Positions 28,742 to 47,311 of a DNA stretch of 64,000 nt are shown piece after piece. The first letter of the stretch is position 1. Each line of letters starts with the position of its first letter. Made by a program: the position numbers and the translations under genes. This DNA comes from Sarcina sp. DSM 11001 (GTDB lineage: Bacteria; Bacillota; Clostridia; Lachnospirales; Lachnospiraceae): assembly GCF_900101015.1 (NCBI RefSeq), contig NZ_FNFZ01000001.1:75412-139411 (forward strand), read 5' to 3'. A model generated the notes under the pieces. That model did not search any database. It saw only the letters and a list, made by a program, of their open reading frames with translations, and had not been told where the DNA came from.

Positions 28742-31700
28742 ATGAAAACTGATGAGAAAAAAACAGAGTATTTGTGCATAGGCCTCCTTGCCCACGTTGA
28801 CGCGGGCAAGACGACACTTTCGGAGGCAATTCTGCACCGGACGGGCGCGATCCGCAGCGCGGGCCGCGTCGACCACGGGGATGCCTTTCTCGACACGGAT
28901 GCCATGGAGCGGGACCGCGGGATCACGATTTTTTCCAAGCAGGCGTCTTTTACAACGCATCCTGCACAGCGGACATCCTTACTTGGAAAGCGGGCATCTC
29001 TTCCTGCAGGGCGGGCATCTGTGTCTGCAGGGCGGTCAGCTGTGCCTGCAGCGGAAGTGTCAGCCGAAGATCGTATATGGACGCTGGTGGACACACCCGG
29101 GCACGCGGATTTTTCCACGGAGATGGAAAGAGTGCTTCAGGTGCTGGATTACGCGGTCCTGATCATCAGTGCGGCGGACGGGGTGACCGGTCAGGTCCGG
29201 ATTCTGTGGAGGCTGTTGGACCACTATGGAGTTCCCGTTTTCATTTTTGTGAATAAAATGGATCAGCCGGGGGCGGACCGGGACGCCGTGTACGGGCAGA
29301 TCAGGGCGGAGCTGGGAAATGCCTGCGTAGATCTGCAGGAGGCGTTTTCGGCAGTAGAAGCGGACGGCAGTAAGACCGGGAGCCGCGGTGAATCTGCTTC
29401 TGGATCCCGCGGATCATCAGCAGCCGGTCAGACAGGCGCGGAGCCGGCTGAGCCTGTTCAGTTCAGGGGCTTTTCCGCGGAGCTTCAGGAAGAGACCGCG
29501 GTCTGCGACGACAGCCTGATGGAGCGTTTCCTGGAGGGAGAGGAGATCACCCTGCAGGACGCGGCGGCTCTGGTGTCTGCCAGGAAGCTCTTCCCGCTTT
29601 GCTTCGGGTCAGCCCTGCACGAAGAAGGGGTCGATGTCCTGCTGGCTATGCTGGACACTCTGGCGCCGGCACCTGTCCGCGGGGACAGCTTCGGGGCGCG
29701 GGTATACAAGATCACACACGATGGGAACGGTGCCAGGCTCACCTGGCTGAAGGTGACGGGCGGAGCGCTCCTGCCCCGGCAGATTATTCCGGAAAGTGTC
29801 GACGAGAAGGGGCAGCCGGAGAAGGCTTCCCAGCTGCGCTTCTATAAAGGAGTAAAATTTGAAGCCCTGCAGGAGGCTCCTGCGGGGATCATTGTCGCGG
29901 TGCCCGGCCTGTCCTCCACCCGCGCAGGGCAGGGCCTGGGGGCGGAGGCAGAGACGGCGGAGGCGGAACAGCTCCTGCAGCCCGTCATGCAGAGCCGCCT
30001 CATCCTTCCACCCGGTCAGGACCTGTATGGCGCCTACCGGATGCTGCGGGCTCTGGAGGAGGAGGATCCCATGCTTCACCTCGCCTATGACGAGGAGAAA
30101 AAAGAGATCACTGTCCAGGTCATGGGCCGGGTCCAGAGGGAGATCCTGCAGCGGCTGATCCTGGACCGGTTTGGCATGCAGGTGGATTTTGGCCCTTCCA
30201 GGATCATCTATAAAGAGACAATCGCAGAACCGGCGGAGGGAGTCGGCCACTTCGAGCCTCTGCGGCACTATGCGGAGGTCCATCTCCTCCTTGAGCCCGG
30301 AGAGCCGGGGAGCGGCCTGGTCTTTGAGAGCCGGTGCAGTGTCAATGACCTGGCACTCAACTGGCAGCGGCTGATCATGACCCATCTCGAGGAGCGCCGC
30401 CACAGGGGTGTCCTGACGGGGGCGGAGATCACGGACATGAAGATCAGTATTATCGGGGGGCGCGCCCATGCCAAGCACACGGAGGGCGGAGATTTCCGCA
30501 AGGCGACCTACCGGGCTGTCCGACAGGGCCTGATGATGACCCGCTCTGTCCTCCTGGAGCCGGCCTATGATTTCCGGCTGGAGCTCCCTCAGGACAATCT
30601 GGGCAGGGCCATGGCTGACCTCCAGCAGATGGATGCCTCATTTGGACAGCCGGAGTTTTCAGAACAGACCGGGAACGCTGTGCTGCGGGGAATCGTCACG
30701 GTCGCGACGCTGGGGAGCTACATGGAGGAGGTAGCCGCCTATACCCGTGGGGCGGGGACTCTGCAATGCACTCTGAGCGGCTATATCCCCTGCAAAAATG
30801 CCGAAGCAGTCATTGCTGCTTCCGGCTATGATCCCGAACTGGATGTGCGCAATCCTTCTTCCTCTGTTTTCTGCTCCCACGGGGCAGGCACTATCATTCC
30901 CTGGTATGAGGTGCGCAGTTTCATGCATGTGGACACCGGCTGGCGCTTTCCGGAGGAGGCTCCCGCCATGACCGAGGAGGAATCCCTGGACATCGCCGCG
31001 GAGAGGGCCAGGAAGGCCGCCGAGGAGCGCGAGAAGCAGCGCAGGCTCCTGGAAGAAGGCATTCTTGAACCTGACCGATCATCATTTGACCGATCTTTAC
31101 CGGGAGATGGTCCGGAGGGGACATGGGGAGCACAGACAGGTGTTTCCGCCCCGGGGAAAAACCCGGGAAAAAATCCGGGAAAAAAGAAAGAGGATGCCTT
31201 CCGGCGGCGCCAGCAGGCCGTTTTTGCAGCGGAAAAAGAACTCATGCAGATCTTTGAACGCACCTACGGACCTGTGAAGTCCCGGGCCGGTTCAGAGTCC
31301 GGCCTTTTTGATCCAGATGGATTCGGGTCAGACTCCTCCCGGAAGAAAAAAAGAGAATCCAGCGACCCCTGGGGCCTGGAAAAAACGGGCGCTGACGACA
31401 GGGCGGACAGCAGACCGGAGCGGAAGATAAAGCCGGTCCAGCCCCAGGACCACTATCTGCTGGTCGACGGCTACAACATCATCTTTGCCTGGGAGGATCT
31501 GAGGCAGCTGGCCCTTCGCGACATCAAATCCGCCCGGGACAAGCTGATGGATATCCTGTCCAATTTTGCAGGCTACCGGTCAGAGAAGGTCATCCTCGTT
31601 TTTGACGCTTACAAGGTGGCAGGCGGTCAGGGTGAAGTCCTCCGCTGGCACAACATCGATGTCGTCTATACAAAGGAGGCGGAGACAGCTGACCTCTATA

Positions 31701-31885
31701 TCGAAAAGACTGCCCATGTCCTCGCTAAAAAATACAGAGTCACCGTGGCGACATCTGATGCCATTGAACAGGTCATCATCTTCGGCGCAGGGGCCTTCCG
31801 CATGTCGGCGCAGATGCTCCTGGAGGAGATCATCTTTACCGAACGCGAGATGCGCGAGCAGTACGGGATCGGGACGGATGAGTGA
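28742..31885 (+). CDS. TetM/EF-G-like translation GTPase fused to a Rae1 (YacP)-like NYN nuclease domain
   Basis: This 1047-residue protein joins two ribosome-related modules. Residues 1-760 resemble TetM/TetO ribosomal protection proteins, a branch of EF-G: P-loop AHVDAGKTT (17-25), switch I DRGITIF (58-64), DTPGH (117-121), NKMD (171-174), then domains II-V. Residues 903-1047 are a YacP/Rae1-type NYN (PIN-like) domain with acidic residues in LVDGYN (Asp909), VFDAYK (Asp955), ETAD (Asp984) and ATSDAIEQ (Asp1006). Rae1 of Bacillus subtilis cuts mRNA in the ribosomal A site. Two low-complexity inserts lie in the G domain (72-108, made of 7-residue repeats between switch I and DTPGH, and about 208-239), and a charged, disordered linker (760-900) precedes the nuclease. 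No Shine-Dalgarno is visible; the start is 8 bp after the DAHP synthase stop, suggesting coupling. Tetracycline resistance should not be assumed. Confidence 0.9.
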   Translation: MKTDEKKTEYLCIGLLAHVDAGKTTLSEAILHRTGAIRSAGRVDHGDAFLDTDAMERDRGITIFSKQASFTTHPAQRTSLLGKRASLPAGRASVSAGRSAVPAAEVSAEDRIWTLVDTPGHADFSTEMERVLQVLDYAVLIISAADGVTGQVRILWRLLDHYGVPVFIFVNKMDQPGADRDAVYGQIRAELGNACVDLQEAFSAVEADGSKTGSRGESASGSRGSSAAGQTGAEPAEPVQFRGFSAELQEETAVCDDSLMERFLEGEEITLQDAAALVSARKLFPLCFGSALHEEGVDVLLAMLDTLAPAPVRGDSFGARVYKITHDGNGARLTWLKVTGGALLPRQIIPESVDEKGQPEKASQLRFYKGVKFEALQEAPAGIIVAVPGLSSTRAGQGLGAEAETAEAEQLLQPVMQSRLILPPGQDLYGAYRMLRALEEEDPMLHLAYDEEKKEITVQVMGRVQREILQRLILDRFGMQVDFGPSRIIYKETIAEPAEGVGHFEPLRHYAEVHLLLEPGEPGSGLVFESRCSVNDLALNWQRLIMTHLEERRHRGVLTGAEITDMKISIIGGRAHAKHTEGGDFRKATYRAVRQGLMMTRSVLLEPAYDFRLELPQDNLGRAMADLQQMDASFGQPEFSEQTGNAVLRGIVTVATLGSYMEEVAAYTRGAGTLQCTLSGYIPCKNAEAVIAASGYDPELDVRNPSSSVFCSHGAGTIIPWYEVRSFMHVDTGWRFPEEAPAMTEEESLDIAAERARKAAEEREKQRRLLEEGILEPDRSSFDRSLPGDGPEGTWGAQTGVSAPGKNPGKNPGKKKEDAFRRRQQAVFAAEKELMQIFERTYGPVKSRAGSESGLFDPDGFGSDSSRKKKRESSDPWGLEKTGADDRADSRPERKIKPVQPQDHYLLVDGYNIIFAWEDLRQLALRDIKSARDKLMDILSNFAGYRSEKVILVFDAYKVAGGQGEVLRWHNIDVVYTKEAETADLYIEKTAHVLAKKYRVTVATSDAIEQVIIFGAGAFRMSAQMLLEEIIFTEREMREQYGIGTDE
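28990..29052 (+). repeat. 21-nt tandem repeat in the GTPase domain
   Basis: Units beginning GCGGGCATCT at 28990 and 29011 and GCGGTCAGCT at 29032 are 21 nt apart, encoding GRASLPA-like heptapeptides in frame between switch I and the DTPGH motif. Confidence 0.85.
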
Positions 31886-32888: not shown

Positions 32889-33542
32889 ATGAATCTGTTA
32901 GCACCTTCTATCCTCAGTGCGGATTTTACCAGGCTGGGCGACGCGATCCGGGCGCTCGATGAGTCTCCGGCGGAGTATGTACACGTCGACGTGATGGACG
33001 GGATGTTTGTCCCGAACATCTCATTCGGTTTCCCGGTCATGAAAAGCATCCGTCCGCTGACAAAAAAGACTTTTGACGTCCATCTCATGGTCCAGGACGG
33101 CGACCGCTACATCGATGCGGCTGCGGAAGCCGGCGCGGACCTGATCTGCCTGCACATTGAGGCGGTCAGGCATCCTCAGCGTGCCCTCTCCTATATCCAC
33201 AGCATCGGGAAAAAGGCGGCCCTTGCCCTGTGTCCCCACACACCCATAAGTGAGCTGACCTGGCTTCTGGACGATCTCGACATGGTCCTGCTGATGACAG
33301 TCAACCCTGGATACGGCGGCCAGTCCTATATCCCCGCGATGACACAAAAGATCAAAGACATGCGGGCCATGATCGACGCCAGCGGGAAAGCGATCGATCT
33401 CGAGATCGACGGCGGAGTGAAGACCTCCAACCTCCAGATGTGCCTGGATGCCGGCGCAAATGTCATCGTGGCCGGATCCGCGGTCTTTGAAGGGAATATT
33501 ATAGAGAACGTGCGGGCATTTAAAGAGATCATGGATCGCTGA
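32889..33542 (+). CDS. rpe: ribulose-phosphate 3-epimerase
   Basis: Rpe interconverts ribulose-5-phosphate and xylulose-5-phosphate, feeding the transketolase encoded at 16.5 kb. The 217-residue TIM barrel shows LAPSILSADF, HVDVMDGMFVPNI, the metal/catalytic HLMV, MTVNPGYGGQ and EIDGGVK blocks in order. GAAAGGA lies 9 nt before ATG 32889. It is followed after 37 bp by the rRNA methyltransferase gene. The usual Firmicutes neighbours rsgA and thiN are not here. Confidence 0.96.
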   Translation: MNLLAPSILSADFTRLGDAIRALDESPAEYVHVDVMDGMFVPNISFGFPVMKSIRPLTKKTFDVHLMVQDGDRYIDAAAEAGADLICLHIEAVRHPQRALSYIHSIGKKAALALCPHTPISELTWLLDDLDMVLLMTVNPGYGGQSYIPAMTQKIKDMRAMIDASGKAIDLEIDGGVKTSNLQMCLDAGANVIVAGSAVFEGNIIENVRAFKEIMDR

Positions 33543-33579
33543 CAGAAAAAAACAGACTTAAGGAAACGGGCTGGAGAAG

Positions 33580-33804
33580 ATGAAGACAGAAAGAAAACAG
33601 ACTGACCGGAACAGGCCGGAGAAGATGAAGACAGAAAGAAAACAGACTGACTGGAACAGACCGGAGAAGATAAAGACGGAAAGAAAACAGACTGACTGGA
33701 ACAGACCGGAGAAGATAAAGACGGAAAGAAAACAGACTGACCGGAACAGGCAGGAGAAGATGAAGACAGAAAGCAGACAGATGTCCGGAAACAGACCTGA
33801 AAAG
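33580..33804 (+). repeat. 45-nt tandem repeat x5 at the start of the rRNA methyltransferase gene
   Basis: Five in-frame 45-nt units begin at 33580, 33625, 33670, 33715 and 33760, encoding 15-residue MKTERKQTDRNRPEK-like blocks. Each unit ends in GGAGAAG, placing a GGAG ribosome binding site directly before the next unit's ATG (33625, 33760) or ATA (33670, 33715). The last unit is the most divergent. Confidence 0.92.
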
Positions 33805-35046
33805 AAGAAAGTGGAAAAAAAGCAGGGAGTCCGAAAAAACCCGGATCCGGTAAAAACTGAAAAAGCTGTAAAAGCGGCAAAAAAGAAATCCCGCTGTCCC
33901 GTTTCCGCTCTCTGCGGCGGCTGTACAATGATCGATGTCCCTTACGATGAACAGATCCTGGGCAAGCAGAAGATCCTCGATGAACTCATCGGGGACTACG
34001 TCACTCCGGATCCCTTTATCCGCATGAAGGCGCCGGAACACTACCGCCATAAGGTAACTTCAGTCTTTGCACCGGACCGTAAGGGAAAGCCGGTCTGCGG
34101 CATCTACCGCGAGGGGACCCATGAAGTCGTACCTGTAAAGGCCTGCCTGATCGAGCATATTCAGGCTGACAGGATCGTCCAGACCATCTATAAGCTCCTG
34201 GCCGACTTCCGCATCCGTGTCTATGACGAGGATCTGGATATGGGGCTTCTCCGCTATGTCCAGATCCGCGCGGCCCGGGCCACAAAAGAGATCATGGTGA
34301 CCCTTGTCCTGACAGACCCTGTTCTTCCGTCCCGCAATACTTTTGTTAAAAAGCTTGTGAAGCTCCATCCGGAAATCACGACGATCTTGGTCAATGTCAA
34401 TGACCGCAATACGACCATGGTCCTCGGAAACCGGGAGACTGTCGTCTACGGAAAAGGCTATATTGAAGACGTCCTCTGCGGAAAGCGCTTCCGCATCTCC
34501 TCCCGCTCCTTCTATCAGGTCAATCCCCTGATGACGGAAAAACTCTATAATATCGCCATCGACTGTGCGGCTCTCTCCGGCAGAGAAACTATCCTGGATG
34601 CCTACTGCGGCATCGGGACCATTGGTATCATTGCCGCCCCCCATGCCCGCCGTGTCATCGGCGTCGAGCTGAACGCGGATGCTGTCCGGGACGCCCAGCA
34701 CAATATCCACATGAACGGACTGACAAACGTCGAGATCCTCCAGGGCGATGCCACCCGCTTTATGGAGGACCTGGCAGCAGGGCACAGGGACATTTCATCT
34801 CCTGACATCGATGTCATTTTCATGGATCCTCCCCGGAGCGGTTCCACGGAAGAGTTCATGCGCGCTGCCTGCGCTGTCCGCCCCAAAAAGATCGTCTACA
34901 TTTCCTGCAGCCCCTGGTCCTTACAGAGGGACCTGGAGTATCTGACACAGAACGGCTACGAGGTCAGAAAGGCGGTTCCCGTGGATATGTTCCCTTTTAC
35001 AGGCGGTATCGAGACTGTCTGTCAAATGGTCCGGACGAACAGTTAA
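33580..35046 (+). CDS. rlmD: 23S rRNA (uracil-5-)-methyltransferase, RumA/RlmD family
   Basis: This SAM-dependent enzyme methylates C5 of a uridine in 23S rRNA. The 488-residue protein begins with about 75 residues of basic 15-residue repeats and a Lys-rich linker not found in the family. The conserved part starts at the iron-sulfur motif CPVSALCGGC (Cys106, Cys112, Cys115, with a fourth Cys in VKACLIEH), then the methyltransferase domain with LDAYCGIGTIG, MDPPRSGS and the catalytic cysteine in YISCSPWSL. No TRAM domain is evident. Start choice is open: ATG 33580, 33625 and 33760 all have GGAG 3 nt upstream with short spacing. The exact target uridine (RlmC, RlmD or both as in RlmCD) cannot be decided from the sequence. 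Confidence 0.9.
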   Translation: MKTERKQTDRNRPEKMKTERKQTDWNRPEKIKTERKQTDWNRPEKIKTERKQTDRNRQEKMKTESRQMSGNRPEKKKVEKKQGVRKNPDPVKTEKAVKAAKKKSRCPVSALCGGCTMIDVPYDEQILGKQKILDELIGDYVTPDPFIRMKAPEHYRHKVTSVFAPDRKGKPVCGIYREGTHEVVPVKACLIEHIQADRIVQTIYKLLADFRIRVYDEDLDMGLLRYVQIRAARATKEIMVTLVLTDPVLPSRNTFVKKLVKLHPEITTILVNVNDRNTTMVLGNRETVVYGKGYIEDVLCGKRFRISSRSFYQVNPLMTEKLYNIAIDCAALSGRETILDAYCGIGTIGIIAAPHARRVIGVELNADAVRDAQHNIHMNGLTNVEILQGDATRFMEDLAAGHRDISSPDIDVIFMDPPRSGSTEEFMRAACAVRPKKIVYISCSPWSLQRDLEYLTQNGYEVRKAVPVDMFPFTGGIETVCQMVRTNS

Positions 35047-41020: not shown

Positions 41021-41105
41021 GGCGAGTCTTGATCTTGATCGTAAAGTACTTTGGCGAGTCCTGATCTTGATCGTAAAGGACTTGCGGGCATGTCCTGATT
41101 TTTGA
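41021..41105. repeat. 32-nt tandem repeat in the adhesin leader
   Basis: GGCGAGTCTTGATCTTGATC at 41021 and GGCGAGTCCTGATCTTGATC at 41053 start 32-nt units; a decayed third copy follows from about 41086 (GCATGTCCTGATTTTTGAT). Confidence 0.75.
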
Positions 41106-41143
41106 TGAAACCAATCCTGTTTTACAAGAAAAAGGAGGATGTT

Positions 41144-44100
41144 TTGAAAAAGAATGTAATGAATCATAGAAGGAATCACCGGCGGCGGGGGTTATCCCGT
41201 GTTCTTCCGGCAGTTCTGGCTGTCATACTTATCCTGCTGTCAGCCGGCAGCAGCATACCGGCGGGTCAGACAGCAGTTTTCGCAAAGAGCCGGGGACGCG
41301 CAGGTTTCACGGAGATCCACAGAAACCTGACAGCTTCTTCCGGGACGGATCACACACAGGTTCCAAAGACAGAGGCTGCGGCCGCAGAAGGGTCATCTCC
41401 GTCAGACAGGGAGAAGACAGGTAATCTGCCTTCATCCGGAAACGGGAAAGACAGAGAGGACACAGACAACAGAGAAAAGACGGAAACCGCTGCAGGAAAA
41501 GAAGACGGCACACCATCTTCCTCTTCTTCTGAGCAGGGCGGGGAGAATACCGGCGAAGCGGATACAGGAGAGGAAAAAACCGGTGGAGACCATCCGGGCG
41601 GGGGTGAAAGTGATGGAAAGGAACCGGCGGACACGGATAACAGTTCAGAGGATGGGAAAGACCAGGTAACCGGAGATAAGGAGACCGGGAACCAGGAAGC
41701 CGGAGAAAAGGAAGCCGGGGGAAATGGATCCGGAGACCAGGAGACCGGAGAAAAGGAAGCCGGGGGAAATGGATCTGGAGATCAGGAGACTGGAGAAACT
41801 GGATCCGGAGGACAGGGAAGCGGAGAAAATGCTTCCGGAGAACAGGAAGCCGGAAAAGATGAATCCGCAGGCCAGGAAGCCGGAAAAGATGAATCCGGGG
41901 ACCAGAAAGCCGGAAAAGATGAATCCGGGGACCAGGAAGCCGGGAAAGATGAATCCGGGGACCAGGTAACCGGAAAAGATGGAAGCGGAGAAAAGGAATC
42001 CCGTGAAAACGGATCCGGCAAGGAGGCTTCCGGCGGGAAATCCGGAGACGGAGAGGACCGGGAGGACAAAGAAGGGGAGAGCGGACAGGACAAGACGGCT
42101 GGATCCGGGGAAGACGGAAAAAAAGACCCTTCCGGGGATCCGGGTTCAGGGGAAGCAGGCAGTAAGCAGGATGAAGGGACTGACCGGGCTGTAACCGGAG
42201 ATAAAGGAAACTCTGGAGACCAGGACAAGACAGGGAAGGAAGCTGTACCGGAGAATAGCGGGCAGGCCGGAGCGGACCCGGCAGCCGGAAAGAATGCCCA
42301 GACTCCTGCTCCGGAGGGCAATGCGGGAGCCGCGGAGGGAAGTACCCTGCAGTCTCCCGCCGCTGTTGAAGCAGCAGAAGAATGGATGACTGCCTCTGAG
42401 TTCAGACGGGCATACAGCAGTGTCTCCCTCGGTGCGGGGGCATTGGGGGCCTCTACTCTCTCAGGCGCGAAGATCGTAAGTAAAGAAAGCGAGATCGATT
42501 ATGAAGATCTGGGGATCGGAGCAGAGGGAAATGGCCATATCAACCACACCACCCCGATCAATGTCCGCGATCAGCAGGGGAATGACTATACGGGTATCTG
42601 CGTTGTCCCGGACGACCGGGGCTGGCCGAAGGGAACAGTCCTGCCCGATGTCAGGAGAGTCACCGATGCCGTGATGATCAAGCTCTATTATTACACAATG
42701 TTAGACAGCTACGGCGAAGACCTGGCCAGGTCCAAGGGCTTTGGCAATACGAGGAAAACGGCGGTCGCTGCCTGCCACGAAGCCATGTCCATGCGGTATG
42801 CGGAGCTGGCCGGGATCGAGTATGACAGGCCGAATCTGAGCAGCGGATTCCGCTCTCTCGTGTCCGCATACCGGTCCGGAGTATCTTCAAAACCAGTACC
42901 GGACCAGGACAGGGTCTTTGTCTATATCAGCGGCAGGACCCAGAGCAGCGGGCACTGGATGCAGGCCTATGTCTTTGGAAGGATGGAAGAGGAGGAAGAG
43001 GAAAAGCCTTCCAGCATCACCCTGATCAAGACGACCTCGGACCCTGATATGCGCAATTCCTACAGCGAGTATTACTGTCTCCATGAGACAGCGTCAGGAG
43101 GGACAGTGGACTTCCGCATGTACGAAGACAAGGCATGTACGAAACGCGTTCATGTGTATACAGGCCCGACGATGACGGTGGAGATCGATCCGATCCAGGT
43201 CGGGCACAACGGAAAGAGCGGCCTCTGGAACCAGAGCATTTTTTACTGTGCTCCCGGAACATATTATCTTAAAGAGGTGAGCACCCCGAAAGGGTATCAG
43301 ACCAGAACGGAGCCCTTTGGCCCGTTTACACTGGCAGAAGGCAGAGGAATAACCATCAAGGCTGAGAATACACCCCGGTATGCGCAGGCAGGGATCCTTA
43401 AAAAGGACGCAAAGAGCGGAAAAGTCCTTGCGGGAGCGAAATTCGGCTTTTATTCCGATCTGGAGGATGCCCGCAATGAGGCTGATCCCGAGGGTGTCTT
43501 TACTACAGGAAGCGACGGCAGATCGAACCTGATCGATGTTCTGGCGGGAAAGACGTATTATGTCCGAGAGCTGAGCGCACCGGAGGGATACAAGCCCATC
43601 AGCGGGGTCAAGGCACTGACAGTGGCAGGCAGCGTCACACAGACAGTATGGACAGAAATAACCAATACTGCGGATGAGCCGGAAACGGGCAAGGTGCAGG
43701 TGCGTAAGAAACCGGCAGACTCCGGAGCAACCGGAAGTCCCTACAGTCTGGCGGGAGCAGAGTATACCCTCTATGACAAGGACGGAAAAAACGCAGGAAC
43801 GCTCAAGACCGGTGAGAACGGCATCTCCAACGTGCTGACAGTCCCCTGCGGGAACTACACTCTGAAAGAGACTTTTCCGTCTCCGGGCTTTGACCTGGAC
43901 ACGAAAACCTATAACGTCACGGTCAGGGCGGACGAGATCAATCTGTTGGAATCTTCCGAACCTCCGAAAAAGGGAACTGTTCAGGTGAATAAGAAATCTT
44001 CGGACCCCAAAGCCACTGAAAGCCCCTACAGCCTGGCAGGAGCAGTGTACACGCTCTATGACAAGGACGGAAAGAGCGCGGGAACACTCAAAACTGGTGA

Positions 44101-47100
44101 GGACGGCACCTCCAATGTGCTGACAGTCCTCTGCGGAAGCTATACACTGGCAGAGACAAGTCCGTCACCCGGCTTCCAGGTGGAAGCTAAAGTCCATAAT
44201 GTCACGGTCAAAGCGGATAAACTCACCGTGGTGGAATCATCCGAAACTCCGGAAAAAGGGACCGTTCAGGTAAAAAAGAGCACGGAGGATCCCGGGGCTG
44301 TGGGCGACCTTTACAGCCTGGCCGGTGCGGAATATACGCTCTATGACAAGAACGGAGAGAGCGTCGGAACACTCAGGACCGGAAAAGACGGCACTTCCAA
44401 CGTGCTGACAGTTCTCTGCGGGAGTTATACGCTGAAAGAGACCTCTGCGCCCACCGGATTTGAGCTGGATACGAAAACCCATAATGTCACAGTCAGGCCA
44501 GTCCTGAACTCCGTAGTGGAGTCTTCGGAGAGGCCTAAAAAGGGGAAGATCACTGTCCGCAAAGTGTCCTCGGAGGAAAAGGAGAAAAAAGAAACCGACA
44601 CTATGCCGGTGGCAGGAGCTGTTTACAGCCTGTATACCACAGAGGAAGATGCCCGGGAAGGAACAGGAGAGACCGGGACATTTGTGATCCGGGAGGACGG
44701 CTCCTCCGATACTCTGGAAGTGCTGGCAGGCAGGACTTATTATATCAGGGAGACGAAAACTCCGGAAGGATACCTGCCTGATGAGAAGATCTACAGGGCG
44801 GAGGTCACTTCCTTTACGGAAACAGTGACAATCGAGAGCGAAGACCGCCTGATCTTCGGCGGAGTCAAAGTATCCAAGCTGGACCGGGAGACCGGAAAAG
44901 GCGCACCGCTCGGAGGAGGATCTCTGTCAGGCGCGGTTTTCAAGATCTGGAATGACGGGGACAGGTCTGTCTATGCGGACGGGAAAAAGATTCTACCGGA
45001 CGGACTTGCCATGACTCTGACTACAGATGAGACCGGGACTGTACAGACCGGGGCGCGGGCTCTCTCCTATGGGAATTACAGGATCGAAGAGGCTTCTGCC
45101 CCGGAAGGATATATGCTGTCAGAGGGAGAAGCCCTGCGATTCGCGATCAGGGAAGATAACACACTTGTAGACCTGACGGGGAGCGAAGACACTTCCATTA
45201 AAGACCAGGTCATCAGAGGAGATTTCTCCCTCAGGAAGATCAACGGATACACACAGAAACGCATGGCAGGCGTCACCTTTGAAGTGACGGCGTTCGATCG
45301 TGAGGGGAATCAGCTGGAAAGCCATCGGTTTACGACTGATGCAAACGGAAACTATGAGAGCACGGCAGAATGGTTCAATGCACAGAAAAAGGAGGAAGAG
45401 ACAGGCCGTCTGTGGTTTGGTATCGATACGGAACCTGATGATTCCATGGGAGCACTCCCCTACGGGGATTATCTGATCACGGAGATCGAAGGGGAAAACA
45501 ACCGTGGAATGAAAATGTTTTCTGACCATTTTTCCATCTATGGACAGAAACAGACAGTCCTGCTGGGAAATATTGAAAATACGATGAAACCGGTCCTGGA
45601 GACAGAGCTGACTGATGAAGACGGGGATCATTTCGCGGACAGCAGCGGGATCGTGACCCTGACAGATACGGTCACTTATGGAGGCATGGAGGAGTATATC
45701 GGAAAAGAAGTGGTCTTCCACGGTGTGATTCATGTCCGGGAGACAGGCGAACCCCTCCTGATCGACGGCAAAAAGGTAGAGGACGTCCGGACGAAAAAAA
45801 TCATGTCCCCTTCCGCGACTGTCACCCTCCGGTTTACCTTCGATGCTTCAAAAACAGAGGGCATGACTCTGGTCTGCTATGAATATGCCTCTGAAAAAAG
45901 CCATCAGGAAGCCGCCGGGCAGGAGGATCCTTCATCCGGTTCGACTGCTCAGACAGCTTCTCCTGAGCCCCCGGCTCCCTGGCATGACAGCACAAACGGG
46001 GGCGAGGATATCGCTTCCCACGCGGATCCTGAGGATGAAGCCCAGACCGTCCGGCTGTGCAGCATCGAGACAGAAGCCGAAGATGCCCTGACCGGAATGC
46101 ATGTCGGAAATGCCCGTGAGGGGGCAGTCACCGTGGATCATGTCACCTGCAGGGGACTGATCCCGGGGAGGACCTATACAGTGACCGGGCACCTGGTCAA
46201 TAAAGCAAATGGTCTGCCTCTGAAGGATAAAGAAGGGAAAAGGGTCACTGCTCAGGCACAGTTTCAGGCTGAGGAGGCGGAACAGACGGTCGATCTGACC
46301 TTTACCTACGATGCCTCCCTCCTGGAAAACACGATAGTTGTGGCCTTTGAACAGCTTTATCTCAAGGGAGAGGACAGCCCGGAGGACCCTGATCTTCCCA
46401 AGGATCCGGAAAGACCCATCGCCGTTCATGAAGATCCGGAGGATGAAGACCAGAGCATCCATTATCCTGAGATCCGGACTTCTGCAGCCGCTGCAGACGG
46501 TGACAGCAAATATATTGAAGCAAAGGGCAGGATCACGGTGCGCGACCGTGTGCTCTGGGAAAATCTGATCACGGGACAGGAGTATCGTCTGAAAGGGAGC
46601 CTGATGAGGAAGGATACCGGAGAGTCTTTCCTGACAGCAGGAAAGGCTGTCGCTTCGGAAGCTGTCTTTACCGCAGAGGAGTCTGCAGGGGAAACTATTA
46701 TCGATTTTAGCTTTGACAGTGCGGAAATTGAACAGGAGCTGGAGAAAGAAGGCCGGGATAAAACTGCCGACAGCAGCCTGCAGAGCCTTGCCCTCGTCGC
46801 TTTTGAAGAATTATATGTGGTTAAAGAAGAGGGAGAGGAGCTCATCGCATCTCACAGGGATCCCGAAGACCCGGCACAGACGGTGATCCTGAGAGAACCT
46901 GACAAGCCGGAAGAACCGGAAGAGCCGGGCGAACCAGAGGAACCTGAAAAACCAGAGGAACCTGAAAAGCCTGAGAAACCCGAGAAGCCCGAGAAACCTG
47001 AAAAGCCGGATAAGCCGGAGAAACCCGAAAAACCCGAAAAACCTGAGAAGCCTGAGAAGCCTGAAAAACCCGAAAAGCCTGAGAAGCCCGAAAAACCCGA

Positions 47101-47311
47101 GAAGCCGGAAAGTACGAAAAATACTGGATCCGGCAGGAAATCGGTGACGCCGGCCTCTCCTTCAACGGTCAGATCCTCCTATGGGGCAAAGACAGGAGAT
47201 GAAACCAATATTCTGTTCTTCCTTGTACCTGTCCTGATCTCTGCGGCCGCTGTTGCCGGACTCTTATTCTACAGGAAAAAGACCAGGAAGTCAGGGCGGC
47301 GCAAAGGATGA
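41144..47311 (+). CDS. giant surface adhesin with thioester, SpaA-like and VaFE domains
   Basis: About 2055 residues. TTG 41144 is chosen because AAAGGAGG lies 5 nt upstream; the ATG at 41105 has none. Order: Arg-rich signal peptide; a 370-residue Gly/Glu/Ser/Asp-rich stalk of decapeptide repeats; a thioester-type domain with Cys486 (TGICVVPDD) and Gln607 (HWMQAYVFG), able in this family to form a reactive Cys-Gln bond; then many SpaA/Cna-B-like modules, including three 95-residue near-copies. Three VaFE-type modules follow, two ending in VVAFEQLY or LVAFEELY. Then come a Pro-Glu-Lys wall-spanning tract, a sorting signal with AKTGDE in place of LPxTG, a membrane helix and a basic tail. It should be attached to the wall by a sortase, which is not in this window, and bind host or neighbour-cell surfaces. 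Confidence 0.9.
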   Translation: MKKNVMNHRRNHRRRGLSRVLPAVLAVILILLSAGSSIPAGQTAVFAKSRGRAGFTEIHRNLTASSGTDHTQVPKTEAAAAEGSSPSDREKTGNLPSSGNGKDREDTDNREKTETAAGKEDGTPSSSSSEQGGENTGEADTGEEKTGGDHPGGGESDGKEPADTDNSSEDGKDQVTGDKETGNQEAGEKEAGGNGSGDQETGEKEAGGNGSGDQETGETGSGGQGSGENASGEQEAGKDESAGQEAGKDESGDQKAGKDESGDQEAGKDESGDQVTGKDGSGEKESRENGSGKEASGGKSGDGEDREDKEGESGQDKTAGSGEDGKKDPSGDPGSGEAGSKQDEGTDRAVTGDKGNSGDQDKTGKEAVPENSGQAGADPAAGKNAQTPAPEGNAGAAEGSTLQSPAAVEAAEEWMTASEFRRAYSSVSLGAGALGASTLSGAKIVSKESEIDYEDLGIGAEGNGHINHTTPINVRDQQGNDYTGICVVPDDRGWPKGTVLPDVRRVTDAVMIKLYYYTMLDSYGEDLARSKGFGNTRKTAVAACHEAMSMRYAELAGIEYDRPNLSSGFRSLVSAYRSGVSSKPVPDQDRVFVYISGRTQSSGHWMQAYVFGRMEEEEEEKPSSITLIKTTSDPDMRNSYSEYYCLHETASGGTVDFRMYEDKACTKRVHVYTGPTMTVEIDPIQVGHNGKSGLWNQSIFYCAPGTYYLKEVSTPKGYQTRTEPFGPFTLAEGRGITIKAENTPRYAQAGILKKDAKSGKVLAGAKFGFYSDLEDARNEADPEGVFTTGSDGRSNLIDVLAGKTYYVRELSAPEGYKPISGVKALTVAGSVTQTVWTEITNTADEPETGKVQVRKKPADSGATGSPYSLAGAEYTLYDKDGKNAGTLKTGENGISNVLTVPCGNYTLKETFPSPGFDLDTKTYNVTVRADEINLLESSEPPKKGTVQVNKKSSDPKATESPYSLAGAVYTLYDKDGKSAGTLKTGEDGTSNVLTVLCGSYTLAETSPSPGFQVEAKVHNVTVKADKLTVVESSETPEKGTVQVKKSTEDPGAVGDLYSLAGAEYTLYDKNGESVGTLRTGKDGTSNVLTVLCGSYTLKETSAPTGFELDTKTHNVTVRPVLNSVVESSERPKKGKITVRKVSSEEKEKKETDTMPVAGAVYSLYTTEEDAREGTGETGTFVIREDGSSDTLEVLAGRTYYIRETKTPEGYLPDEKIYRAEVTSFTETVTIESEDRLIFGGVKVSKLDRETGKGAPLGGGSLSGAVFKIWNDGDRSVYADGKKILPDGLAMTLTTDETGTVQTGARALSYGNYRIEEASAPEGYMLSEGEALRFAIREDNTLVDLTGSEDTSIKDQVIRGDFSLRKINGYTQKRMAGVTFEVTAFDREGNQLESHRFTTDANGNYESTAEWFNAQKKEEETGRLWFGIDTEPDDSMGALPYGDYLITEIEGENNRGMKMFSDHFSIYGQKQTVLLGNIENTMKPVLETELTDEDGDHFADSSGIVTLTDTVTYGGMEEYIGKEVVFHGVIHVRETGEPLLIDGKKVEDVRTKKIMSPSATVTLRFTFDASKTEGMTLVCYEYASEKSHQEAAGQEDPSSGSTAQTASPEPPAPWHDSTNGGEDIASHADPEDEAQTVRLCSIETEAEDALTGMHVGNAREGAVTVDHVTCRGLIPGRTYTVTGHLVNKANGLPLKDKEGKRVTAQAQFQAEEAEQTVDLTFTYDASLLENTIVVAFEQLYLKGEDSPEDPDLPKDPERPIAVHEDPEDEDQSIHYPEIRTSAAAADGDSKYIEAKGRITVRDRVLWENLITGQEYRLKGSLMRKDTGESFLTAGKAVASEAVFTAEESAGETIIDFSFDSAEIEQELEKEGRDKTADSSLQSLALVAFEELYVVKEEGEELIASHRDPEDPAQTVILREPDKPEEPEEPGEPEEPEKPEEPEKPEKPEKPEKPEKPDKPEKPEKPEKPEKPEKPEKPEKPEKPEKPEKPESTKNTGSGRKSVTPASPSTVRSSYGAKTGDETNILFFLVPVLISAAAVAGLLFYRKKTRKSGRRKG
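41660..41995 (+). repeat. 30-nt repeats encoding the adhesin stalk
   Basis: Repeated units such as CCGGAAAAGATGAATCCGGG encode 10-residue GDQEAGKDES-like blocks. Copies between about 41865 and 41970 are almost identical; outer ones are degenerate. Confidence 0.85.
43688..44542 (+). repeat. 285-nt module repeat x3 in the adhesin
   Basis: Corresponding VQV codons lie at 43694, 43979 and 44264, exactly 285 nt apart. Each 95-residue SpaA-like unit contains YSLAGAxYTLYDK and TSNVLTVLCGxYTL-type blocks, with the isopeptide lysine expected in the VQVxKK strand. Confidence 0.88.
46905..47112 (+). repeat. 9-nt Pro-Glu-Lys codon repeats
   Basis: CCTGAGAAG/CCCGAAAAA-type units encode about 20 PEK or PEE triplets. 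It is a typical wall-spanning tract and a likely site for length variation. Confidence 0.9.

Follow-up and report, generated by a model that had tools for sequence, protein, structure and literature searches.

In a 64,000-nucleotide stretch of the genome of Sarcina sp. DSM 11001 (contig NZ_FNFZ01000001.1, positions 75,412 to 139,411; hereafter the window), we identified a gene whose single open reading frame (ORF; 28742..31885, plus strand, ATG start, uninterrupted, 1,047 amino acids) links a GTPase of the EF-G/TetM type, through 176 residues of linker, to a NYN nuclease of the YacP/Rae1 type, with both active sites judged intact from the sequence. We propose that the fused protein is a chromosomal, ribosome-directed mRNA endonuclease that stands in for Rae1 and is tethered to its GTPase, a proposal to which we give about even chances; very probably it is no resistance gene but a translation-linked endonuclease with a core role. 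The proposal builds on four features read from the sequences: the architecture, the intact catalytic residues, the grouping of the fused proteins in one clade and the absence or decay of the separate rae1 gene (yacP).

Matches to the Pfam families GTP_EFTU, EFG_III, EFG_IV and EFG_C all exceeded their cut-offs, giving the protein the features of the translational GTPase superfamily, whereas domain II (EF-G_D2) reached 20.7 bits against a cut-off of 27. NYN_YacP matched residues 906–1041 with an E-value of 4e-44 (150.9 bits; cut-off 24.6), and this part matched the Bacillus subtilis YacP structures 5mq8 and 5mq9 at E 2e-26 with the four acidic residues aligned; the NYN assignment is by sequence match alone, the structure-based fold search having mostly covered residues 4–697. 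A preliminary description of the window had recognized both modules in one frame, and the Pfam matches, the intact AHVDAGKTT, DTPGH and NKMD motifs and the four acids bear it out. It had put the linker at 140 residues; measured from the end of the conserved element after domain V (residue 727) to the start of the NYN domain (residue 904), it spans 176, within a range of 63–207 and above a median of 82 among 143 measured proteins. The expectation that the architecture would recur in other genomes was also confirmed: a complete ORF was present at 78 of the best 80 loci of the scan, and all 78 were fused, the other two lacking a complete ORF. These E-values and the recurrence exclude a chance architecture.

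Conservation was assessed in 154 fused ORFs from fetched loci (149 distinct, the window protein among them). Rows were selected on part of the later loop of the domain IV tip (HTxGGDF or close), DTPG, D909, DGYN (fused rows) and the P-loop (unfused rows); H503, E505 and H509 lie outside these selection motifs. The GTPase residues D20, G22, K23, T24, T25, T62, D117, H121, N171, K172 and D174 were present in 149 of 149 fused proteins, as was D909, itself used for selection, and the nuclease acids D955, D984 and D1006 were present in 148, the remaining row being a gap. At the domain IV tip, H503, E505, P506, H509, A511 and E512 in the first loop, and H579, T580, G583, D584 and F585 in the later one, were invariant in the 149 fused and 27 unfused proteins, with K578 in 148/149 and 26/27, respectively. 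One unfused protein (L249, from genome G211; G and L numbers are our handles for genomes and loci) has a normal first loop and a deviating later loop (QYTDGGDL), and was excluded from the 27 by the selection pattern. Four low-scoring or divergent members kept the acids as far as their sequences extend; among divergent fused proteins, L076 (G130) has an insert within the NYN domain and L069 (G043) an altered TSDxxEQ region.

What argues most strongly for the fused enzyme doing the work of Rae1 is that free yacP is gone or decayed at its site upstream of sigH. The window's genome held no second NYN_YacP gene, and all 49 fused genomes of the order carried only the fused full-length YacP; a separate intact rae1 and loss of the acids in homologues, both singled out for checking in the preliminary description, were absent from these sets, the one gapped row aside. 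A free yacP is flanked by rlmB and sigH in G054 and G519 and adjoins sigH in G254; the names rlmB and mrnC at this site are presumed from the Bacillus gene order. In the window's genome, only 109 bases separate rlmB from sigH, and they hold no yacP. An intact yacP upstream of sigH was found in 0 of 39 fused genomes inspected, and remnants in six. For this comparison sigH was located in 15 of 19 genomes (not in the fused G162) and then in 39 of 43, with 30 of those 39 examined; rlmB was found at 20 of 30 and 8 of 8 inspected sites, and G050, which has no NYN at all, was excluded from the site count. Among the first eight fused genomes (G000, G102, G127, G155, G362, G529, G220 and G248), none had yacP at the site, and remnants scored 75 bits in G248 (with in-frame stops), 39 in G220 and 37 in G362, against a best of 8.9 bits for 6,600 shuffled translations and 262 and 178 bits for the intact yacP of G054 and G519. 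Thirty further fused genomes had no intact yacP within 1,500 bases upstream of sigH; remnants there scored 27 (G200), 13 (G421) and 12 bits (G446) against a best control of 6.3 (5,400 controls), and a 9.0-bit match in G487 was marginal, the best of the other control set being 8.9. In G343, neither yacP nor a remnant was found upstream of sigH, and rlmB was not found there. Because the six remnants are spread over four families, decay of yacP in place probably happened more than once. From these sequences, the fused enzyme seems to have taken over from the ordinary rae1 gene.

The fusion occurs across many families of Clostridia. With one genome per genus, the NYN family was present in 180 of 200 genomes of the window's own family, mostly, among the matches listed, in frames of about 850–1,000 amino acids. 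The order had NYN in 123 of 146 genomes, 49 of them fused with the GTPase in one gene and 74 free (G281, at a contig end, was omitted; G237, a broken gene at 306 bits, was entered by hand as fused). At class level NYN was found in 156 of 236 genomes and the GTPase in 104 of 236 at E 1e-130, a few of the latter (449–513 bits) being Tet-like or fragments; 23 of 299 genomes of the phylum passed E 1e-130, three of them at only 486–497 bits. The threshold for GTPase presence was 500 bits, so G016 (306) and G068 (444) were scored as absent. Three genomes were not counted as free: G042 has a split gene whose GTPase ORF immediately precedes the NYN part, and in G095 and G128 the gene lies at a contig end. 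A second NYN in G039, at a contig end, is either free or fused, and that of G173 is broken over contigs. The class count of unfused GTPases excludes the fragments G387, G464, G511 and G471, the Tet-like G479 and the second match of G540.

In a quick maximum-likelihood GTPase tree of 80 rows hand-chosen among the fetched sequences (45 fused, 29 unfused, 3 Tet or Tet-like and 3 EF-G), all 45 fused GTPases formed one clade nested among unfused ones (99 by the Shimodaira–Hasegawa-like approximate likelihood ratio test, SH-aLRT), so the fusion probably arose once. An equally quick NYN tree of 43 fused and 32 free rows, likewise without bootstrap, required three changes of the fused label, the free rows among the fused being the split gene of G042 and that of G095, cut by a contig end. 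In four genomes of two families (G551:C1, G236:C1, G257:C96 and G277:C2), the fused gene lies about 3.5–12 kilobases from sigH, and this closeness to the neighbour of yacP elsewhere may hint at the birthplace of the fusion. NCBI uses the name 'translation factor GTPase family protein' for a fused member in Monoglobus. The fused protein is also matched over 86–89% of its length by two human faecal records named 'Bacteriophage sp.' (MT835563.1 5397-7964 and MT835514.1 15255-17792), which represent either bacterial host DNA caught in a virome or a copy carried by phage.

By scores and motifs, the GTPase appears to be a subfamily of its own and not a Tet protein. The closest curated model, NCBIfam tet_protect, gave the window protein 389.5 bits against a cut-off of 775, and the EF-G model TIGR00484 gave 241.8 bits against 659.4. 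The fused L033 (445 bits) and the unfused L266 (430) and L254 (450) likewise fell below the tet_protect cut-off, whereas L078, a protein of Tet(M/W/O/S) type encoded in another genome of this family, scored 819 on that model and 1,285 against a cut-off of 1,100 on tet_protect_M_W. At the domain IV tip the alignment sets AHAKHTEGGDF against YYSPVSTPADF of TetM, and the tip motifs HxKHTxGGDF and GHFEPLRHYAE, like the SVFC hairpin after domain V, are common to the fused GTPase and its unfused relatives. The earlier label 'TetM/EF-G-like' stands in part: a translational GTPase with domains III–V holds, with domain II below its cut-off, and TetM does not, given the Tet cut-offs and the tip. Elsewhere in the same genome, a separate 727-amino-acid frame has an EF-G-like match.

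NCBI assigns an unfused relative, H4/L331 (NZ_CP020859.1 153995-155914), the label TetM/TetW/TetO/TetS; of 38 plasmid records that match, 33 come from Ligilactobacillus, and the matches listed cover the GTPase part only. With VHTVGGDF at its tip and the SVFC element after domain V, H4/L331 is probably mislabelled as a resistance gene. Judging from this one example, TetM-type resistance entries in databases may include core translation factors of the KHTxGGDF subfamily, and such mislabelling would inflate resistance-gene counts.

In EF-G-like factors on the ribosome, domain IV reaches into the decoding region. By analogy, the EF-G-shaped GTPase would dock at the ribosomal factor site, its unusual, histidine-rich domain IV tip pointing into that region; GTP hydrolysis would then release the GTPase, and the tethered NYN domain would enter the vacated A site and cut the mRNA there or on a neighbouring ribosome, after which transfer-messenger RNA (tmRNA), present in the window's genome, could free the truncated complex. 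A linker of at least 63 residues, the minimum among the 143 measured proteins, could span the distance from domain V to the A site. Ribosome binding, GTPase activity and A-site cutting are carried over here from relatives, and the order of events, a coupling of GTP hydrolysis to cutting and the trigger are what we infer. In evolution, the GTPase subfamily would have been fused, probably once, to Rae1 (YacP) via a flexible linker and would then have displaced the separate rae1. More tentatively, the KHTxGGDF GTPase subfamily could inspect ribosomes whose A site is empty or abnormal, and its welding to Rae1 in one large lineage could have displaced the older Rae1 in many families of Clostridia; we regard this as possible but doubtful. 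If true, the fused protein would be a translation factor of a new class: a nuclease, driven by GTP, that surveys ribosomes and in which inspection and mRNA cutting are one reaction. As a natural experiment, the fusion of Rae1 in a large group of bacteria to a GTPase expected to dock on ribosomes, with the free form dropped, suggests that a GTPase partner can supply targeting.

Several observations weigh against a ribosome-directed nuclease of this kind. The GTPase and the nuclease would compete for one A site that could not hold the two at once, and the model has to assume either that the first gives way to the second or that the cut falls on a neighbouring ribosome. The predicted model does not fix the position of the NYN domain, with predicted local distance difference test (pLDDT) values below 50 for much of the linker. 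In Bacillus, Rae1 exists as a separate protein. The NYN domain of the window protein (143 amino acids, against up to 165) lacks the typical last ~22 residues, a C-terminal tail that is not known to be needed; all 25 free domains examined, and 102 of the 145 fused ones, extend to 160 amino acids. No conserved gene neighbourhood was found, the most frequent neighbour recurring at 8 of 75 loci, and the literature search, which did not extend to the primary Rae1 papers, found no functional study of or experiment on any family member. In the order, free YacP accompanied the unfused GTPase in 12 of 13 genomes but was also present in 62 of 83 others, a co-occurrence that was not significant (Fisher p 0.29). 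Within the family, unfused GTPases were present in 6 of 10 genomes with free YacP and in 0 of 16 tested without YacP (p 0.0009; 16 of the 20 NYN-less genomes were searched); these statistics treat related genomes as independent, which they are not. In the class, 6 of 12 genomes with an unfused GTPase, from four genera, had no YacP (G536, G365, G397, G513, G413 and G370), and the four tree rows from these six branch beside the fused clade; no yacP remnant was found upstream of sigH in G365 and G413. A strict interdependence of GTPase and YacP was dropped on these exceptions, which also partly question the ribosome-docking mechanism of the preliminary description: because the unfused GTPase occurs without YacP, it appears to have some job without the nuclease. 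Another genome, G454, has two unfused GTPases (L260 and L261) and one YacP.

The GTPase could have a separate job on the ribosome (rescue, recycling or stall relief), the fusion merely parking Rae1 on ribosomes, uncoupled from GTP hydrolysis. We consider this rather unlikely, although the class exceptions fit it, as does the retention of the same tip in the unfused GTPases that were read from YacP-less genomes (L255, L258, L263 and L264). The long and variable linker also fits, as does the NYN comparison: 33 positions were at least 90% conserved in both fused (145) and free (25) domains, and none was conserved (85%) in one set yet rare (<30%) in the other. Arguing for more than tethering, the two modules have remained in one protein throughout many families, none of the 39 fused genomes inspected retains a free rae1, and the linker carries a short conserved motif (E833 in 144/149 and T841 in 137/149 fused proteins), which suggests that it is more than a string.

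A role in maturation of rRNA or tRNA, on ribosomes or precursors, is improbable. In free genomes yacP sits beside rlmB and near mrnC, both presumably rRNA genes, as such a role might predict. Set against this, B. subtilis Rae1 is reported to act on the ribosome as an mRNA endonuclease (PMC12320835), and what is conserved among free NYN domains is also kept in the fused ones.

A main role in drug resistance, for which PMC4342817 suggested in 2015 a ribosome protection of tetracycline type supplemented by an RNase, is very unlikely and was rejected, in keeping with the preference of the preliminary description: although tet_protect is the closest curated model and NCBI calls the plasmid relative a TetM-family protein, the four members tested stay at 389–450 bits where L078 passes its cut-off, the SPVSTPADF tip is replaced by KHTxGGDF, the NYN family is widespread in the 200 genera and, among the matches listed, largely fused, and resistance would not explain the loss of free rae1. 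No tetracycline minimal inhibitory concentration data on the fused protein were recognized in the literature search. Anti-phage defence was also rejected, with 0 PADLOC families matched at E 0.001.

Table 1. Features of the fused gene in window coordinates (residue numbers refer to the 1,047-amino-acid protein)
Feature	Positions	Strand	Basis
GTPase–linker–NYN fusion, whole gene	28742..31885	+	ORF, translation, Pfam
G domain, residues 11–309; P-loop AHVDAGKTT, DTPGH (His121), NKMD	28772..29668	+	Pfam GTP_EFTU, E 9e-48
21-base tandem repeat, 3 copies; G-domain insert, residues ~84–104	28990..29051	+	Tandem Repeats Finder (TRF); pLDDT <50 at 82–105
Domain II, residues 319–398, weak match	29696..29935	+	Pfam EF-G_D2, below cut-off
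EF-G domain III, residues 434–484	30041..30193	+	Pfam EFG_III
EF-G domain IV, residues 487–599	30200..30538	+	Pfam EFG_IV
Domain IV tip, first loop GVGHFEPLRHYAEV, residues 500–513	30239..30280	+	H503, E505, H509 invariant
Domain IV tip, later loop GRAHAKHTEGGDFR, residues 573–586	30458..30499	+	Aligned with TetM YYSPVSTPADF, but different
EF-G domain V, residues 603–687	30548..30802	+	Pfam EFG_C
Post-domain-V element SVFCSHGAG...W, residues 708–721, predicted beta hairpin	30863..30904	+	AlphaFold; conservation
Linker, residues 728–903, mostly low confidence, two predicted helices	30923..31450	+	pLDDT, DSSP
Conserved linker motif, consensus ELxxIFxRTYG, residues 833–843	31238..31270	+	Conservation
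NYN_YacP/Rae1 nuclease domain, residues 904–1041; D909, D955, D984, D1006, E988	31451..31864	+	Pfam; 5mq8/5mq9

Clustering of neighbours (75, 20 and 26 loci) yielded no operon partner. A 3-deoxy-D-arabino-heptulosonate 7-phosphate (DAHP) synthase gene lies 8 bases upstream in the window; no counterpart was found in 80 named loci at E 1e-20, even at the nearest relative, L123. Further along the window, positions 33541-33845 hold a 45-base tandem repeat in six copies, which encodes the lysine/arginine-rich repeated N-terminus of an RNA uracil methyltransferase-like protein. The product of positions 41102-47311 is 2,069 amino acids long and combines SpaA domains, T-Q ester-bond domains and a number of repeat arrays.

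The bare GTPase–NYN architecture is already published, which corrects the earlier view of it as undescribed: the passages of PMC4342817 (Atkinson 2015) on Tet-NYN proteins record it in one sentence, under Tet, in ten Clostridiales. The same passages cite an earlier idea that YacP domains serve rRNA or tRNA maturation, and mention neither a separate subfamily nor replacement of free yacP. We found the fusion mentioned only in the parts of that paper available to us, in a search that did not reach the full Rae1 papers of 2017, 2018, 2023 and 2025. As far as our searches show, three findings are new: that the GTPase forms a subfamily apart, that the fused proteins make up one clade, and that rae1 was displaced and left remnants.

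Among known systems, the Tet-NYN proteins of 2015 have the same architecture, an EF-G/Tet-like GTPase and a YacP-like NYN. TetM and TetO (3j9y, 3j25 and 4v6v) differ from the window protein, which has other domain IV tip loops, an extra SVFC hairpin, the linker and the nuclease; EF-G and archaeal EF2 are also distinct, the window protein falling well below the EF-G cut-off. RelE-type nucleases have a different fold and no GTPase; A-site mRNA cutting would be common to both, and no recurrent neighbour accompanies the fused gene. Such A-site mRNA endonucleases are named in the available part of PMC12320835, which places Rae1 among the few bacterial nucleases that cut mRNA inside translating ribosomes. 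Rae1/YacP of B. subtilis (5mq8 and 5mq9; a 181-amino-acid entry) has the same NYN domain and four acids as a free protein, whereas here the domain, without the C-terminal tail, is fused to a GTPase.

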